38,389 nucleotides of DNA from a virus: IMG/VR virus record IMGVR_UViG_3300031933_000087, positions 1 to 38,389 of that record. One strand, 5' to 3'. The notes beneath the pieces were generated by a model, which was given only the letters and a program-made list of their open reading frames with translations, did no database searches and had not been told where the DNA came from. Below, one piece after another: positions 4,443 through 23,007 of this stretch. A program made the translations under genes and the position numbers. How positions within the stretch are numbered: position 1 is the first letter of the stretch; each line of letters starts with the position of its first letter.

Positions 4443-4578
4443 TTTTAATCTCCTCACAAGCATCTTCATAAAGTTGTTTCGCAAAACCTAATAGTTCATC
4501 TTCAGAAAAAGTATAAGTTCTATCAGTATTATACAACCCATATGCGTCAGCATACATAAAAATTCGGTCTTCAGTCAT
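4435..4578 (-). CDS. Hypothetical protein, 47 aa
   Basis: Starts MTEDRIFMYADAYGLYNTD and ends in an acidic helix with the KND tail seen in several neighbours. Start and stop are both inside coupled overlaps (4 nt and 8 nt). Function unknown. Confidence 0.55.
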   Translation of the reverse strand: MTEDRIFMYADAYGLYNTDRTYTFSEDELLGFAKQLYEDACEEIKND

Positions 4579-4742
4579 TCTTCCTCTCCAAATCTAAAAG
4601 GATAAAGTCGTTTCACACCACCAGAAGCATACTTGATTTCATCTTCTAATTGACGAATATACACGAAAATTGAGTATGGAACCTCAAAGTGCTCTAACTC
4701 TTTGGTCTCATTATTATAGCACGAAATGTAGGATTTAGTCAT
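4575..4742 (-). CDS. Hypothetical protein, 55 aa
   Basis: Starts MTKSYISCYNNETKELEHFE. A TATAATAATG sequence lies inside the early codons (4713-4718) and could act as an internal promoter. The 3' end overlaps the next ATG by 4 nt. Function unknown. Confidence 0.55.
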   Translation of the reverse strand: MTKSYISCYNNETKELEHFEVPYSIFVYIRQLEDEIKYASGGVKRLYPFRFGEEE

Positions 4743-4906
4743 TCCTCATCCCCATAATCAGGCACACTTACACTGGAGTCAATCATCTGGTAATTATAAA
4801 CACCACGAACATCCCACATCATATTTTTTAGTAGTTTTTCTGCTTCCTCATAAGTATCAGCAGCAATTACAACTTCACCAGAATATTCAAAGTGGTAGTC
4901 ATTCAT
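4739..4906 (-). CDS. Hypothetical protein, 55 aa
   Basis: Starts MNDYHFEYSGEVVIAADTYE. The beta strand then helix containing TYEEAEKLLKNM resembles small phage proteins with a DpdA- or YcfA-like fold, but I cannot assign it. Coupled by ATGA at both ends. Confidence 0.55.
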   Translation of the reverse strand: MNDYHFEYSGEVVIAADTYEEAEKLLKNMMWDVRGVYNYQMIDSSVSVPDYGDEE

Positions 4907-5443: not shown

Positions 5444-5466
5444 AATGTTTCTGTGTGTATGTAAGT

Positions 5467-5521
5467 ATTATACAATAAAAAAGGGTCTCCGTAAAGACCC
5501 CGTGTGCCAGTTCTTCAGGTG
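5467..5521 (-). promoter_or_regulatory. Bipartite promoter copy 3 fused to a terminator hairpin
   Basis: Minus strand: CACCTGAAGAACTGGCACA (5503-5521), then hairpin GGGTCTTTACGGAGACCC (5483-5500) with a T-run, then TATAAT (5467-5472). TTTACG (5490-5495), mostly in the loop, lies exactly 17 nt before the -10 and can serve as the -35. One short segment may therefore end the upstream transcript and start the next. Confidence 0.75.
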
Positions 5522-5524
5522 TCC

Positions 5525-5836
5525 CTAATCATCTGGTAAGTATTCCAATGCTTGACGAATGCGAGCAATTCTTGATGTATCAATTTCTTTAATTGTTGAT
5601 ATTTCATTAAGAGCAAAAATCGCACTTTGTTTTCTGCTGGTTGTCGCACTAGCTCTATAAAGATTTAGATTAGTCGCTATAGACCTAATGTGATGTTTGT
5701 TAAGGTATTCTACACATTCCCTACGCTCTTCCGTAGAAGCCCACACAGCTACATCTTCAATTAATGGAGATAATACTTCTGGCGATTGATTATGCTTCTC
5801 ACACCAAGTAGAGATTTGAGAGTAGTCCGGTTTCAT
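5525..5836 (-). CDS. Hypothetical protein, 103 aa
   Basis: Helical protein whose end (KQSAIFALNEISTIKEI then RIRQALEYLPDD) resembles the tail of the 5072-5443 protein, suggesting a shared C-terminal module. It lies between promoter copies 3 and 4. Function unknown. Confidence 0.6.
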   Translation of the reverse strand: MKPDYSQISTWCEKHNQSPEVLSPLIEDVAVWASTEERRECVEYLNKHHIRSIATNLNLYRASATTSRKQSAIFALNEISTIKEIDTSRIARIRQALEYLPDD

Positions 5837-17322: not shown

Positions 17323-18198
17323 TTATGATATTCTTCTTCTCTTGGAAGTGTCTATACCATTTCTCTTTTGATACTTTGAAAGATTTCCGGGATTAGCAAT
17401 ATATCCAGTTTCAGTACATTCCCATTTTTGAGAGCATACTTTTTTTCCAGTTTCTCTTCTTTTTTCTGTAGGTATTCCATAAATTCCAATACCAAGTTCT
17501 TTACATTTTTTACCTGCTATTTTTCCGCCAATTTTACCACCTATGGATCCTCCTTTTTTGCCATTTTTTGTTCTTTCTTCTGGAGTAAAAGCATATATTC
17601 CAGTTCCATTTTTCTTATGAGTTTCTGCCGCTTTTTTTCCATTTTCACTTCTTTGTTCAAAACTCATCCCATAAAACCCAATATTATTATTTTTATGAGT
17701 TTCTACTCCTTTTTTACCATTTTCACTTCTTTGTTTGGGAGAAATTCCACATAAACCAGTTTTATTTTTTTTATGATTATTTCCACTAGTTATTCCACCT
17801 CTACTAGAATTTTTTAACCTTTCATCTTTATTTAAAGCAAATATTCCCACATTATTTTCTTTTGTTTTCTCTCCACCTTTCAATCCTGCTTTTTTTTGAT
17901 GTTCTATGGAAAATATACCAGCACAATTTTCATTTAAACACCATTTATCATCATTATAAAATTCTTTAATTATTCTTTTTTCAACTTTATTCCCTTCTAT
18001 CCAACCATCATCAGTATAAGGAAACACTTCTAATATTTGTTTTTTGGGAGTATAAAGTTCCCAAACCCATTTATTAGTGTATGGAGAACCCCAATATTCC
18101 TCATCAAATACATCTTCTTTATGAACACCATAATAGTAATACAAAACTTCCTCAAAGGTGATTTTGTATATGTAAATTCTTGGACTTTGTGAAGTCAT
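17323..18198 (-). CDS. GIY-YIG-like endonuclease with repeats (B), 291 aa
   Basis: The N-terminus IYIYKITFEEVLYYYYGVHK fits a divergent GIY-YIG core, with EGNKVEKRIIKEFY (catalytic glutamate helix) and WCLNENCAG as later elements. The usual arginine of the nuclease is not obvious. About six repeats of the type GIYxxTPEERTKNGKKGG follow. The C-terminus, CTETGYIANPGNLSKYQ then RNGIDTSKRRRIS, is shared with C, D and E. Preceded by composite element 2. Confidence 0.7.
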   Translation of the reverse strand: MTSQSPRIYIYKITFEEVLYYYYGVHKEDVFDEEYWGSPYTNKWVWELYTPKKQILEVFPYTDDGWIEGNKVEKRIIKEFYNDDKWCLNENCAGIFSIEHQKKAGLKGGEKTKENNVGIFALNKDERLKNSSRGGITSGNNHKKNKTGLCGISPKQRSENGKKGVETHKNNNIGFYGMSFEQRSENGKKAAETHKKNGTGIYAFTPEERTKNGKKGGSIGGKIGGKIAGKKCKELGIGIYGIPTEKRRETGKKVCSQKWECTETGYIANPGNLSKYQKRNGIDTSKRRRIS

Positions 18199-18315: not shown

Positions 18316-19119
18316 TTAGATTTCAATTGTTAAATTTGGATCAAAATTAAGATTTAGACCGGAAGAATTCACTCCCGAATAATACCCCCTAGGATTACAA
18401 ATTATTTCACATTCATTAATAGAGTATCGAAAACTTTCGTGTGTATGACCGTGCGACCAATATTTGATTTGAGGATTATCCAAAATCAAATCCTCCAAGT
18501 TACTCGCATATGCCCCATTCGCAATACCAGCAGTTCGGTATTTTGGATGAACCGATTGATAAGATGGTGCGTGATGTGTAAGAACCCAAGTTTTAGTATC
18601 CTTAAACTCCTCCAACTTTTGCTGAAGAAATAGTTTGGACTTCTTATGAAACTTGAGAGTATCCTCGGGGTTCATCTTACGATAGTTAGAACCAATACGA
18701 ATAACCTTATAATCATTCATACACTGTGCCGCTTCCATCATCTCCAGAGCATTCTCATTACGAAAGTCAGTCCAGAGGGTGCAACCTAAGAAAATCGTAT
18801 CCTTTATTTTTACATAATCGTTCTCAAGGTAATGAATTTCTTTTGGAAGATGCTCTGCGAGAACATCAAAGGTTCCCTCCACATTATACCCATAAAATTC
18901 GTGATTACCATTTATGTAAAGAACCTCATCAAAGTTCTTTACGCACTTCTGTAGGAAGTCATCATAGACCTTATGAAGAGGTCCATCTTTCTTAAAGTGC
19001 CGGGCACATAGAATGTCTCCACCAAGAATAAGAACATCACCTGTTCCAAGGTCAGGAACTCCGTGACCGTGTTCGCAAGCCTCCAAATGTAAATCCGAGA
19101 CGCATTTAATCCTTGTCAT
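18316..19119 (-). CDS. Calcineurin-like metallophosphoesterase, 267 aa
   Basis: All family motifs are present: SDLHLE (about residues 8-13), GGDI (33-36), INGNHE (69-74), THHAP (about 178) and SHGHTHES (about 222). These residues hold two metal ions that cleave phosphoesters in nucleotides, nucleic acids or proteins. Its position beside the kinase, phosphatase and ligase suggests a nucleic-acid end-processing role (inference). The ATG at 19119 is preferred to the adjacent GTG. Confidence 0.8.
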   Translation of the reverse strand: MTRIKCVSDLHLEACEHGHGVPDLGTGDVLILGGDILCARHFKKDGPLHKVYDDFLQKCVKNFDEVLYINGNHEFYGYNVEGTFDVLAEHLPKEIHYLENDYVKIKDTIFLGCTLWTDFRNENALEMMEAAQCMNDYKVIRIGSNYRKMNPEDTLKFHKKSKLFLQQKLEEFKDTKTWVLTHHAPSYQSVHPKYRTAGIANGAYASNLEDLILDNPQIKYWSHGHTHESFRYSINECEIICNPRGYYSGVNSSGLNLNFDPNLTIEI

Positions 19120-19267
19120 CACAAAGTCCCACAGGTGGTTTGATATTCATAAGGTCATTATACAGCAACATAGCAAAAATGTGGTGAGGTCTTGTGCCAG
19201 TTTCAATTGCGGAACTGGTGGCAACCGCCCACATAATATTCAGTTGATTTTTATCAGGCAGTTCCAT
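19106..19267 (-). CDS. Hypothetical protein, 53 aa, containing a promoter
   Basis: Starts MELPDKNQLNIMWAVATSSA in a TGATG junction with the phosphatase gene. Residues ETGTRPHHIFAMLLYNDLMN are encoded by promoter copy 9, including the TATAAT (codons LYND). The 3' end overlaps the phosphoesterase start by 14 nt. Function unknown. Confidence 0.6.
   Translation of the reverse strand: MELPDKNQLNIMWAVATSSAIETGTRPHHIFAMLLYNDLMNIKPPVGLCDDKD
19157..19202 (-). promoter_or_regulatory. Bipartite promoter, copy 9, inside a gene
   Basis: AACTGGCACA (19193-19202), 30 nt, TATAAT (19157-19162), then GACC and the phosphoesterase start 38 nt on. The upstream CAC half is degenerate (GCAATTGAAACTGG), perhaps because the sequence is also coding. 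Confidence 0.55.
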
Positions 19268-19722
19268 CAAAAATCTCCTTTACCTTGTGATACATCAAAC
19301 ACAAAAATACCACGATTTATCCACATATCAATTACCCTTTTCCTATCATCAAAAACAGCAAAGATATTATAATCCTCCTCAATCTGGTCGGCAAGTTCTC
19401 CCTTTACAATCGCATCATCCCGATGGTCTTCATACTTTCGCATTAGAAGACCATTATAATCGTGTTCGCAAATACCATACTTCTCAAACCATTTCAGGGT
19501 CACATCACGATAGTCATCACTTCTTCCACTTACAAAGAAGATTGGAAATCTATCTTTGAGTGCGTTAAGAACCTCAAGAACCTGTGGAATTGGTCGGTCG
19601 TTTATAATCCCCAAGTTCCAGGCATTCCAATTGCGAGGTTTAGTTGCGACATACTGACGACGATGAGAAACATCACATAATGTCCCATCTAAATCCACAA
19701 CTACACAATTAGGTTTCGTCAT
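19267..19722 (-). CDS. Polynucleotide 3'-phosphatase (HAD), 151 aa
   Basis: VVVDLDGTLCD (D10, D12) is HAD motif I; FVSGRSDDYR (about 59-68) is motif II; DRKR with the preceding FDD gives the acidic motif. It matches the C-terminal half of T4 Pnkp, which removes 3'-phosphates from broken RNA or DNA ends. Here it is a separate gene, overlapping the kinase gene by 14 nt, so the two probably work together. Confidence 0.75.
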   Translation of the reverse strand: MTKPNCVVVDLDGTLCDVSHRRQYVATKPRNWNAWNLGIINDRPIPQVLEVLNALKDRFPIFFVSGRSDDYRDVTLKWFEKYGICEHDYNGLLMRKYEDHRDDAIVKGELADQIEEDYNIFAVFDDRKRVIDMWINRGIFVFDVSQGKGDF

Positions 19723-20191
19723 TTACACACTCCACATAATCAAAATCCTCATTACGAGTAGGAATTTCAAGTTGATGATACATTCTTTTGAGAATGCTTT
19801 CGGGAATAAACTTACCTTCACGATTTTTGTTTCGTTCCAGCGCCTCTTCTAGTGATACCTCAAAGTACATCACACCTCTTGCGTAAAAGGAAGGGAGTTT
19901 GGAAAGTTTTTTCTTTCTGGTCTTGACTGTGAGATTTGTCTGGTCCCAAATGAGATTTTCACCCCTATCCTTCGCCATAATGAACGCAAGTTCTAACTGA
20001 CGGGTTGCTTCACTAATACAATCCTCAAAGATTTCGTTATAAGTCGTATTGTGTTCTTGTGCGACCTTTTCAATATAATTGTCTGTGGATAAGATTACCG
20101 AATTGGACCAATAAGGAATTGTTTTCAGTTTTTCGACGTATGTAGATTTTCCGGAACAAGGGATACCTACAAGCATTACACATTCAGGCAT
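19709..20191 (-). CDS. Polynucleotide 5'-kinase, 160 aa
   Basis: GIPCSGKST at residues 9-17 is the P-loop; STDNYIEK and IWDQTNLTVKTRKKKLSKL correspond to the substrate and Arg-lid regions of the T4 Pnkp kinase domain. The enzyme would phosphorylate 5'-OH ends for ligation. Length fits the kinase domain alone. Promoter copy 10 lies about 20 nt upstream. Confidence 0.75.
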   Translation of the reverse strand: MPECVMLVGIPCSGKSTYVEKLKTIPYWSNSVILSTDNYIEKVAQEHNTTYNEIFEDCISEATRQLELAFIMAKDRGENLIWDQTNLTVKTRKKKLSKLPSFYARGVMYFEVSLEEALERNKNREGKFIPESILKRMYHQLEIPTRNEDFDYVECVNDET

Positions 20192-20211
20192 TTTTCTTTA
20201 TCTTTGGAAGT

Positions 20212-20266
20212 ATTATACAATAAAAAAGGGTCTCCGTAAAGACCCTTTGTGCCAGTTTGAGAAGTG
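20212..20266 (-). promoter_or_regulatory. Bipartite promoter copy 10 fused to a terminator hairpin
   Basis: Minus strand: CACTTCTCAAACTGGCACA, hairpin with stem AAAGGGTCT/AGACCCTTT (20225-20248) and T-run, TATAAT (20212-20217). TTTACG (20235-20240) is 17 nt before the -10. The hairpin-to-promoter part is identical to copy 3. Confidence 0.75.
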
Positions 20267-20269
20267 GTA

Positions 20270-21160
20270 TTATGATATGCGTCTTCTGTTTGTTTTAGAA
20301 GTATCTATACCTCTCGCCTTTTGGTATGAAACTACTCCAGCAGCAGTAGATATATAACCAGTTTCACAACACTCCCATCTTTGGGTGTTTATTATTTTCG
20401 CTGATTTTTTACCTATTTCCACTTTTTCTTCTTTTGTTAGTGAAAATATACCCAATCCTAGTTCTTTCGCCCTTTCCCCCACAATTTTACCACCAATAGA
20501 ACCTCCTTTTCTACCACTCTCTTTTCTTTGTTCTTTTGTTTGTCCGTGAATACCTACACCAAGTTCATATGATTTTTTGCCACCTTTTTTACCCCCTTTT
20601 TTACAATTTTTAGTCACTTGCTCCGGAGTAAGTCCGTGAATACCTACACCAAGTTCATATGTTTTAGTTCCTCCCACTTTTCCTCCTTTTTTACTAATTT
20701 CACTTCTTTGCTCTTTGGTAAATCCATAAAATCCAATACCAAGTTCTTTAGATTTTTTGTTTATTTCTCTATTCCTTTCAATCCATTCTTCTTTAGATAA
20801 TCCGTGAACGCCAATACCAAGTTCTCTTTGTGTTTGATGTGATTTTTTTACATTTTCTCTTGCCTGCTCTGTTGGAACATAAAATCTTGTAGTAGTTTGA
20901 TAGCATCTATTGGCAAAGTGTGGATTTTCTACTACCTTATAATATTCTTGTAAAATAATCTCATCAGCATATGCTTCTTCTCTTGTAGCATAATCACTTT
21001 TGAGTATTATCTTTTGAGTTGGTTTGAAGGTTTTATCATAAAAAGAACCAAGATACTTTACATCTTCTTCTGGTAAGCATTTACATCCTCTGCTACCAAA
21101 ATATCCTCTACCCCATTCTTCATACGAATAATAGGTATAGTAATACTTTCGATTTTCCAT
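20270..21160 (-). CDS. GIY-YIG-like endonuclease with repeats (C), 296 aa
   Basis: I start at MENRKYYYTYYSYEEWGRGY; the 27 codons before it lie in the leader element. YYTYYSYEEWGRGYFGSRGC is the GIY-YIG core, with the conserved arginine, and AYADEIILQEYY holds the glutamate. Five or six repeats such as ELGIGFYGFTKEQRSEISKK follow. The end CCETGYISTAAGVVSYQKAR then GIDTSK is the shared C-terminal module. Preceded by composite element 3. Confidence 0.7.
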   Translation of the reverse strand: MENRKYYYTYYSYEEWGRGYFGSRGCKCLPEEDVKYLGSFYDKTFKPTQKIILKSDYATREEAYADEIILQEYYKVVENPHFANRCYQTTTRFYVPTEQARENVKKSHQTQRELGIGVHGLSKEEWIERNREINKKSKELGIGFYGFTKEQRSEISKKGGKVGGTKTYELGVGIHGLTPEQVTKNCKKGGKKGGKKSYELGVGIHGQTKEQRKESGRKGGSIGGKIVGERAKELGLGIFSLTKEEKVEIGKKSAKIINTQRWECCETGYISTAAGVVSYQKARGIDTSKTNRRRIS

Positions 21161-21165
21161 AGTTC

Positions 21166-21262
21166 TGCTTTTGATTTGGTCTTTATTATTTATACAAGAA
21201 AAGGAGCATTTCTGCTCCCGTTCTCTGCTTTTAGCGACCAAACCAAAGCACCATTATTTATA
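21166..21262 (-). ncRNA. Composite sRNA/leader element 3 (before endonuclease C)
   Basis: Minus-strand order: late box TATAAATA (21255-21262); H1 with a 6-bp stem (21226-21231 with 21245-21250) and a 13-nt loop; H2 GGAGCA-GAAA-TGCTCC (within 21197-21224) and TTTTCT; late box TATAAATA (21187-21194); then 21170-21181, complementary to 21236-21247 at all 12 positions with one G-U pair, plus three more pairs after a bulge. Confidence 0.65.
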
Positions 21263-21264
21263 CA

Positions 21265-21741
21265 CTATGAATATACAAACTCCTTCCAATCACTTACATT
21301 AGAAGTATTGATAGTCAGGTGAAGTTTATTATAAGGTCTCTTGACTTGTTTCAGTAGAGGCATTCCAGATTCTTCTGGTGTTTTGTTTCCTTTCTTTACA
21401 TTACAGGAACCACAACACGAACATAGGTTTTCCCAACTATCTACTCCTCCCCGAGACGCAGGATGAATGTGGTCTATTGTAAGATTTTCAGTTGCCCCAC
21501 AATATAAACACTTGTATCCATCCCTCTTCATAACTAGACTTCTGGTGGGACGATTTTCCATTAACTTCCTATAAGGCAACCGAATATAATTCAACAACCG
21601 AATAACTTTTTCGGTAATCATATGTGCCTTTTGTTTCAGGAGTAGAACAATTGCTCTGCGTCCATCACAAATATTGATAGGAGAATAATCACTATTTAGA
21701 ACAAGAACGTTGTTTTTAATGCCGATTTTTTGATAATCCAT
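21265..21741 (-). CDS. HNH endonuclease, 158 aa
   Basis: CLYCGATENLTIDHIHPASR and GGVDSWENLCSCCGSCNVKK form an HNH core with two CxxC zinc pairs and the catalytic DH (about residues 90-91), ending KKGNKTPEES. The N-terminal LVLNSDYSPINICDGRRAIV is typical of cyanobacterial and phage HNH proteins. It may be a free-standing homing enzyme or a nuclease acting with its repair-gene neighbours. Confidence 0.8.
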   Translation of the reverse strand: MDYQKIGIKNNVLVLNSDYSPINICDGRRAIVLLLKQKAHMITEKVIRLLNYIRLPYRKLMENRPTRSLVMKRDGYKCLYCGATENLTIDHIHPASRGGVDSWENLCSCCGSCNVKKGNKTPEESGMPLLKQVKRPYNKLHLTINTSNVSDWKEFVYS

Positions 21742-21747
21742 AGACGT

Positions 21748-22932
21748 TTATTGTTCTTGAGTATCTATATGGTTCCAATCTAAATTACCCCACATCCATC
21801 GGGCATCGTTAATCTTTTGCTGGGAACTCAAAGATTTTCCAATCATATCAATTAGAACTTCTTGAGAACCTTTACCACCTTTCATCGCATACATTATAGG
21901 AGCATATTTGGGAAGCACGATTTTCTGGACGAACTCAACAGCAAAGTCTTTCTTATCAGGGTACTTTGTGTTTCCGGTCACAAAGAGATCCACCAAATCA
22001 CAGGCAACGTCTTCCAGACCCGCCCAGAATGCCCTCTCAAAGGAGCGTAGGCGGTCTGCGTCCTCTGGGGTCAAGAGGGGCACCAAATCGTCTACAGAGT
22101 CTCCCAGAAGGGTCTGGAGGACGTTCTTCTCCTGACTGATGCTGTCTTTGGATCGGTGGCGAAGCACATAATCATCCGCTTTCACCTTCACCATATGACC
22201 GGTATCAAAACGAAGAACAATACCTTCACCATCATCCCATTCACGAACTTGCTTCACGAACAGTTCAATATTCTGGACGGCAAGACCATCAACTGCTTTT
22301 ACAACAGGAATACCCCAGGAGGTTGCGTAGTTCTTCATTACCTCATAATCCACATACTTCCCAGTATCATTATAACGCATTCCGGTAAGAATTAGATTGT
22401 CTTCGGGATAATCCACCACAACACGATTTTTACGGGAACACCACTCAAAGAGAGGAGTGGTTCCTTTTTGGATACACTTGCGAATGAAAGTATCATAATG
22501 AGATTTATCGGCAACGAACACTTCTGCGTTCATAGACACAGAAGTTATGCCGGATTTAGTACATAAGCGAAATCCATAAGAAGTTGGTTGAGCGGAAATT
22601 AATGAACCATCTAACTTCTCAAGAACAATATGAGGTTCATAGAGATTAATTTTATTCAGTTGTGTTTCTTCTTTTTCGCCAACATTAAAGAACTTATGAT
22701 ATTTTCTACAAATCAGGTCTCCGTTCTCATTAAAAGTAATTCCCCTACATTCTCGTCTTACAGCAGAACCCACAGGGTCATTATCATCCCACTTAAAGGT
22801 TTCCTCAAGTGCGACCATATACTTGATTACGGTGTAACCTTCTTTCTCAATTACACGAAACTCTTTACGACCCTCAATATGGGGAAGAACATCATCAATA
22901 TGCGTGATGTGTGGGAAGTCGTAGGTAATCAT
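21748..22932 (-). CDS. rnlA: T4 Rnl1-type RNA ligase, 394 aa
   Basis: EKLDGSL near residues 105-111 carries the nucleotidyl-accepting lysine K106. ECRGITF, KYHKFFN, FEWCSRKNRVVVDY and LTGMRYNDTGKYVDYE follow the order in T4 gp63, and the C-terminal helical region matches its tRNA-binding part. Length is close to T4 Rnl1 (374). It seals RNA ends prepared by the kinase and phosphatase nearby, classically to repair anticodon-nuclease damage. I start at the ATG at 22932; the upstream TTG lies in the promoter. Confidence 0.85.
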   Translation of the reverse strand: MITYDFPHITHIDDVLPHIEGRKEFRVIEKEGYTVIKYMVALEETFKWDDNDPVGSAVRRECRGITFNENGDLICRKYHKFFNVGEKEETQLNKINLYEPHIVLEKLDGSLISAQPTSYGFRLCTKSGITSVSMNAEVFVADKSHYDTFIRKCIQKGTTPLFEWCSRKNRVVVDYPEDNLILTGMRYNDTGKYVDYEVMKNYATSWGIPVVKAVDGLAVQNIELFVKQVREWDDGEGIVLRFDTGHMVKVKADDYVLRHRSKDSISQEKNVLQTLLGDSVDDLVPLLTPEDADRLRSFERAFWAGLEDVACDLVDLFVTGNTKYPDKKDFAVEFVQKIVLPKYAPIMYAMKGGKGSQEVLIDMIGKSLSSQQKINDARWMWGNLDWNHIDTQEQ

Positions 22933-22953: not shown

Positions 22954-23007
22954 ATTATAATACAATTTTTCTAAAAATCAAGTTATATTGTGCCAGTTTA
23001 ATGAGTG
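22954..23007 (-). promoter_or_regulatory. Bipartite promoter, copy 11, before the RNA ligase
   Basis: CACTCATTAAACTGGCACA, 29 nt, TATAAT (22954-22959), with TTGATT (22976-22981) 16 nt upstream of the -10. A second TATAAT lies at 22943-22948. There is no GC hairpin in this copy. Confidence 0.7.

Follow-up and report, generated by a model that had tools for sequence, protein, structure and literature searches.

Phage RNA repair is usually told through the fused kinase-phosphatase Pnkp (pseT) of phage T4, which together with the RNA ligase Rnl1 (rnlA) repairs tRNA-Lys cut by PrrC (PMC3014915). Related enzymes occur in other combinations: the bacterial Pnkp1-Rnl-Hen1 system, whose Pnkp1 is fused, joins kinase and HAD healing domains with a ligase for cleaved RNA (PMC4411300); the HD-Pnk proteins of phages RM378 and CP220 carry a kinase fused to an HD phosphohydrolase; and in jumbo phages PNK-HAD phosphatases are described as “usually fused” to the kinase, with an HAD, HD or calcineurin-like phosphatase depending on the phage (PMC7824862). 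Here we analyzed a viral DNA of 38,389 nucleotides (nt), IMGVR_UViG_3300031933_000087 (hereafter, the window), whose minus strand carries at 18316-22932 a putative RNA repair set in which a polynucleotide 5′-kinase-like protein, a HAD-family 3′-phosphatase and an Rnl1-family RNA ligase are encoded by separate genes.

The window locus resembles T4 in its three enzyme types and in the order of kinase before phosphatase, whereas T4 Pnkp is fused and not directly beside rnlA, and the window kinase lacks Arg38 and falls on another branch of the kinase tree. It likewise shares kinase and HAD healing domains and a ligase with the bacterial Pnkp1-Rnl-Hen1 system, but as separate proteins. The HD-Pnk kinases of RM378 and CP220 share its side of the tree and also lack Arg38, and RM378 shares a YN.VF-type motif; unlike these, the window kinase gene encodes a kinase only (160 amino acids), with no HD phosphohydrolase domain fused to it, and is accompanied by a separate HAD phosphatase. 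Phages RpAliso, RcXuper, MD18, DSS3P8 and Cr30 have an Rnl1 gene followed by a stand-alone kinase, and the roseophages also have a stand-alone HAD phosphatase, although their kinases are ~36-42% identical to that of the window and the phosphatase, which lies 2.5-3.1 kb upstream in the roseophages, was missing from the Cr30 matches. Given what jumbo-phage genomics has described (PMC7824862), separate healing enzymes represent a variant of a known theme.

Enzymes of the proposed healing and sealing set

The ligase (21748-22932, minus strand, 394 amino acids) matched PF09511 (RNA_lig_T4_1; E 3.3e-33, 115.9 bits against a cut-off of 28.3), phrog_562 (E 7e-69) and, in the PDB, T4 Rnl1 (E 1e-19). 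A match to TIGR02308 (E 8e-37) fell under the cut-off of that model, as did the T4-type C-terminal domain PF20819 (21.0 bits, cut-off 27). Motif I (EKLDGS, of the KxDG type), GEGIVLR and VKVKADDY are all present, and based on these matches the ligase belongs to the Rnl1 (RNA ligase 1) family. Its open reading frame (ORF) opens at a TTG at 22965; the first ATG, at 22932, agrees with the end coordinate given by an earlier reading of this DNA made without database searches (the sequence-only reading).

The stand-alone kinase (19709-20191, minus strand) matched AAA_33 in Pfam (E 4e-18, 66.5 bits against a cut-off of 27) and polynucleotide kinases in PHROG, and carries the P-loop GIPCSGKST, D37, DQTN, R120 and R124. 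Its predicted structure (predicted local distance difference test, pLDDT, 94.5) adopts a P-loop kinase fold, for which the best PDB matches were Clostridium thermocellum Pnkp (Z 17.2) and T4 Pnkp (Z 16.5), and a profile built from its relatives matched Pnkp1 (best), T4 Pnkp and C. thermocellum Pnkp. The model also aligned with PSTK (Z 16.3) and zeta toxin (Z 14.0). Judged by this model, the protein is a polynucleotide-kinase-like P-loop kinase. The fold is shared by PSTK, zeta toxin and metabolite kinases, which scored slightly lower, and does not by itself settle the substrate.

The stand-alone phosphatase (19267-19722, minus strand, 151 amino acids) matched PF25109 (HAD_PNKP) with E 1.2e-28 and 100.5 bits, against a curated cut-off of 27.6. 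Its profile matched the HAD domain of Pnkp1 best (E 7e-28), followed by the T4 phosphatase (E 1e-20 to 1e-21), and the catalytic residues DLDGT, SGR, K107 and D125-D126 are present; catalytic motifs are intact in all enzymes of the set. Public phage records commonly give the label “polynucleotide kinase” to stand-alone HAD phosphatases as well as to stand-alone kinases, and our assignments correct this shared name, which covers two distinct stand-alone proteins.

Two side observations concern kinases of other phages. In Synechococcus phage B23 (5989-6464), the kinase seemingly shifts frame near its 3′ end with loss of the Arg motif, as either a pseudogene or a sequencing error. In three roseophage loci (L004, L018 and L019), a gene for an HslV-like “proteasome subunit beta” lies directly 3′ of the kinase.

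Unfused layout and lineage

The sequence-only reading had placed kinase and phosphatase in two genes with a 14-nt overlap, and this holds: the kinase runs from 20191 to 19709 and the phosphatase from 19722 to 19267, sharing 19709-19722 on the minus strand (ATGACGAAACCTAA) in different frames. To place this arrangement in context, we scanned viral contigs and annotated phages and obtained 44 distinct loci, the window included. Across these contigs and cultured roseophages, kinase and HAD phosphatase were separate genes on the same strand in every case (44/44), with Rnl1 also present in 40 loci. The kinase came first in 33 and the phosphatase in 11, and spacing ranged from an overlap (14 nt in L035, as in the window, and 8 nt in L036, both among the nearest relatives) to 5.5 kb, with a whole gene between the two in some loci. 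One such intervening gene is deaminase-like (phrog_174 dCMP deaminase, 4e-18; L065 at 4497-4877, L066 and L139), and a third group has instead a conserved ORF of ~76 amino acids (L028 at 5455-5685 and its relatives), for which the L028 group gave no PHROG match. A stand-alone kinase gene follows Rnl1 immediately in Cr30, RpAliso, MD18, RcXuper, DSS3P8, RHph_I1_18 and BUCT-ZZ01; in Synechococcus phage B23 a single small gene comes between them. Comparison of these loci thus indicates that the unfused kinase/phosphatase layout is genuine and occurs widely among phages, and that its parts are known enzyme types. Since cultured phages carry it, the layout is already present in public genomes, although we found no publication describing the unfused set in a literature search that fell short of most subscription journals.

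The overlap invites the explanation that a T4-type fused Pnkp was recently broken into two overlapping pieces, perhaps through a sequencing error or frameshift, as the T4 domain order is kept and the phosphatase begins in another frame within the last 14 nt of the kinase. This is very unlikely. A sequencing error splitting one gene, which the sequence-only reading had named as a possible refutation, is ruled out, as is a frameshift, by the 43 other distinct unfused loci, and differing spacings and orders, including the occasional deaminase-like gene in between, argue against fission more generally. A fusion restored by programmed frameshifting within the overlap is likewise unsupported, as the two coding regions are separated in many relatives by ~190-380 nt, or by an entire gene. 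In the kinase tree, a branch with 100/99 support parts the fused T4-type kinases (with the phiKSUM kinase-ligase) from the stand-alone and HD-Pnk kinases, and the RM378 and CP220 HD-Pnk kinases group with the stand-alone ones (96/93); in the HAD tree, eight T4-type fused phosphatases lie on one side of a branch with 98/94 support. The position of T4 Arg38 follows the same division, with Arg in 8 of 8 fused kinases and in none of 93 stand-alone ones, which have Ile (79, the window among them), Val (8), Leu (5) or His (1). Hence, where the sequence-only reading spoke of a “split” kinase and phosphatase, the two trees, the Arg38 position and the freedom of gene order speak for an independent system rather than a broken T4 enzyme, and “unfused” is the fitter word. 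From these sequence comparisons, kinase and phosphatase are most likely an old unfused pair kept as neighbors rather than a recently broken T4 enzyme; as both trees are unrooted, a very old fission of a fused gene is possible.

Likely function and rival explanations

Based on their identities and linkage, ligase, kinase and phosphatase most likely form a three-enzyme phage set for RNA end healing and sealing that restores RNAs, probably tRNAs, cleaved in the course of infection, a reading to which we assign a probability of about 0.7. RNA breaks bearing a 5′-OH and a 3′ or 2′,3′-cyclic phosphate would arise during infection; the kinase would phosphorylate the 5′-OH ends, the HAD phosphatase would strip the 3′ (or 2′,3′-cyclic) phosphate, and the Rnl1-type ligase would then seal the healed ends, as T4 Pnkp and Rnl1 do for tRNA. 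We infer the enzyme activities, RNA as the substrate and joint action of the three proteins. The neighborhood in RHph_I1_18, where the ligase-kinase pair adjoins a CCA-adding enzyme, a tRNA-His guanylyltransferase (Thg1-type) and two tRNAs, fits tRNA repair. The wide occurrence of the unfused form, in cyanophages and roseophages, suggests that aquatic phages too face RNA-cutting attack, and shows the healing steps to be separable and exchangeable. As small single-function enzymes, the two healing proteins also allow kinase and phosphatase specificity to be tested apart.

Defense against host RNA-cleaving immunity, as the sequence-only reading had proposed, is a plausible purpose by analogy with T4 (PMC3014915). 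The window virus likely infects cyanobacteria, given its DNA matches to the cyanophages S-SRM01, B23 and S-PM2 and the Photo_RC (psbA/psbD-type) proteins encoded by 7 of 22 contigs with a related kinase cluster. We therefore searched for candidate anticodon nucleases in 201 genomes of one cyanobacterial family (that of one Cyanobium genome), six of which had a PrrC-like PF13166 match above cut-off. The sole full-length match was closest to the PADLOC candidate PDC-S06, its match to PrrC being weaker, and the survey, in which PrrC-like ABC proteins were rare, does not decide for or against a target nuclease. In an earlier survey, RloC was found in 0 of 37 cyanobacteria (PMC2610378).

Several observations weigh against repair of cut tRNAs by all three enzymes. 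No anticodon nuclease of a known host was confirmed by the PF13166 survey of one cyanobacterial family, and a tRNA gene near the set was absent in 33 of 34 loci, RHph_I1_18 being the exception. HAD_PNKP exceeded its cut-off in 16 of the 22 contigs carrying such a kinase; it was not seen in the kinase contigs G004, G013, G017 and G231, and no match was present in the kinase-bearing phages B23, BUCT-ZZ01 and Cr30, so that the phosphatase is not obligatory. Finally, Arg38 is important to the activity of the T4 kinase, and the window kinase has Ile at this position. Its loss does not rule out kinase activity, since the RM378 HD-Pnk, which also lacks Arg38, is reported active in work cited in PMC1997131.

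A further reading is a distinct, modular RNA repair lineage whose stand-alone kinase, lacking Arg38, would act in trans with Rnl1 and an interchangeable 3′-end phosphatase, namely HAD where present and something else where absent, with substrate recognition unlike that of T4 Pnkp and perhaps as a three-protein complex; we regard this as a tentative possibility. Kinase and phosphatase could instead alter RNA ends for decay by host RNases E/G and PNPase, since T4 Pnk with RegB takes part in such mRNA turnover besides tRNA repair (PMC3014915), yet this process needs no ligase and Rnl1 is linked to the pair in all but four loci, which makes turnover an unlikely primary role. It seems decidedly improbable that the set mends DNA ends or nicks, such as breaks made by the HNH and homing nucleases of the phage itself: several loci do place an HNH gene between ligase and kinase, and a stand-alone HAD_PNKP is paired with a DNA ligase gene in some phages (DoCa6), but the ligase here is an RNA ligase 1 family member, and recombination is the usual means of repairing homing breaks.

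Optional neighbors and mobile genes

In transcription order on the minus strand, the locus comprises gene C, the Rnl1 ligase, an HNH gene, gene D, the kinase, the HAD phosphatase, a 54-amino-acid ORF, a metallophosphoesterase (MPE) gene and gene E. The HNH endonuclease-like protein (21265-21741, minus strand), of a host-type family, matched PF14279 (HNH_5; E 2e-13) and phrog_16726 (E 3e-51), and relatives 40-46% identical occur in many bacterial chromosomes, including those of cyanobacteria and Prochlorococcus. The window and seven other distinct loci holding the HAD phosphatase (six with the ligase in view) have an HNH gene between ligase and kinase; most of the distinct loci lack one. A dedicated repair role for the HNH protein is unsupported, its family being common in bacterial chromosomes, although the linkage recurs. 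The calcineurin-like MPE (18316-19122, minus strand; PF00149, E 6e-10; phrog_1649, E 2e-53) is found 3′ of the phosphatase in L030, L035, L036, L037 and L057, and MPE matches were obtained in 6 of the 22 related contigs. Replacement of a missing HAD phosphatase by the MPE is also unsupported, as only one of the four contigs lacking any HAD_PNKP match (G231) has one. The sequence-only reading had counted both proteins in the set; gene content across loci leaves ligase, kinase and phosphatase as its core, with HNH and MPE as optional extras. Between phosphatase and MPE lies the 54-amino-acid ORF (19106-19270, minus strand), with relatives in L034, L036 and L037.

Three repeat-rich genes surround or interrupt the set: C (23919-23014) at its upstream flank, D (20270-21241, with an internal ATG at residue 28, position 21160) between HNH and kinase, and E (17323-18198) at its downstream flank, all on the minus strand. 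C and E are paralogues of D, which has DNA relatives in S-PM2 and S-SRM01, and all three contain repeats and a pattern resembling a GIY-YIG motif. None of the three gave a Pfam GIY-YIG match, and profile comparison with I-TevI by hhalign yielded no match; the structure model of gene D was poor (pLDDT 45.7) and too weak for a fold search. Gene D is thus a putative GIY-YIG/NUMOD3-like homing endonuclease, with its nuclease domain unconfirmed. It is absent from L035, L036 and L118, where HNH directly abuts the kinase, and this comparison identifies it as a recent mobile insert. The earlier view that GIY-YIG genes C and D break up the set therefore stands for D as an interrupting mobile gene, but C flanks the set and the GIY-YIG identity is unconfirmed.

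DNA identity to the nearest relatives differs along the set, with 81% for Rnl1, 82-84% for HNH, 71-74% for the kinase, 93-95% for the phosphatase and 84% for the MPE. The kinase gene is a mosaic, resembling L035 and L036 on the 3′ side of a breakpoint at approximately 19790-19840, where the likeness switches, and L037 and L039 on the 5′ side. Phage homing endonucleases are known to convert neighboring sequence (PMC10448857), and the mosaic is consistent with homing by gene D accompanied by conversion of the adjacent kinase. Another repeat-rich gene in the window (13968-13099, minus strand) has four NUMOD3 stretches (1.5e-36) and matches PHROG homing endonucleases; mobile nuclease genes are abundant in this region. 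In the L118 record (G020), a Photo_RC match at 65024-66337 (minus strand) is in three pieces, as if introns interrupted psbA, and in G013 the Photo_RC match is likewise broken. L035 and L118, both from metagenome 3300024346, each stop inside the cluster where HNH meets the kinase; they may represent two portions of a single genome or a pair of close relatives.

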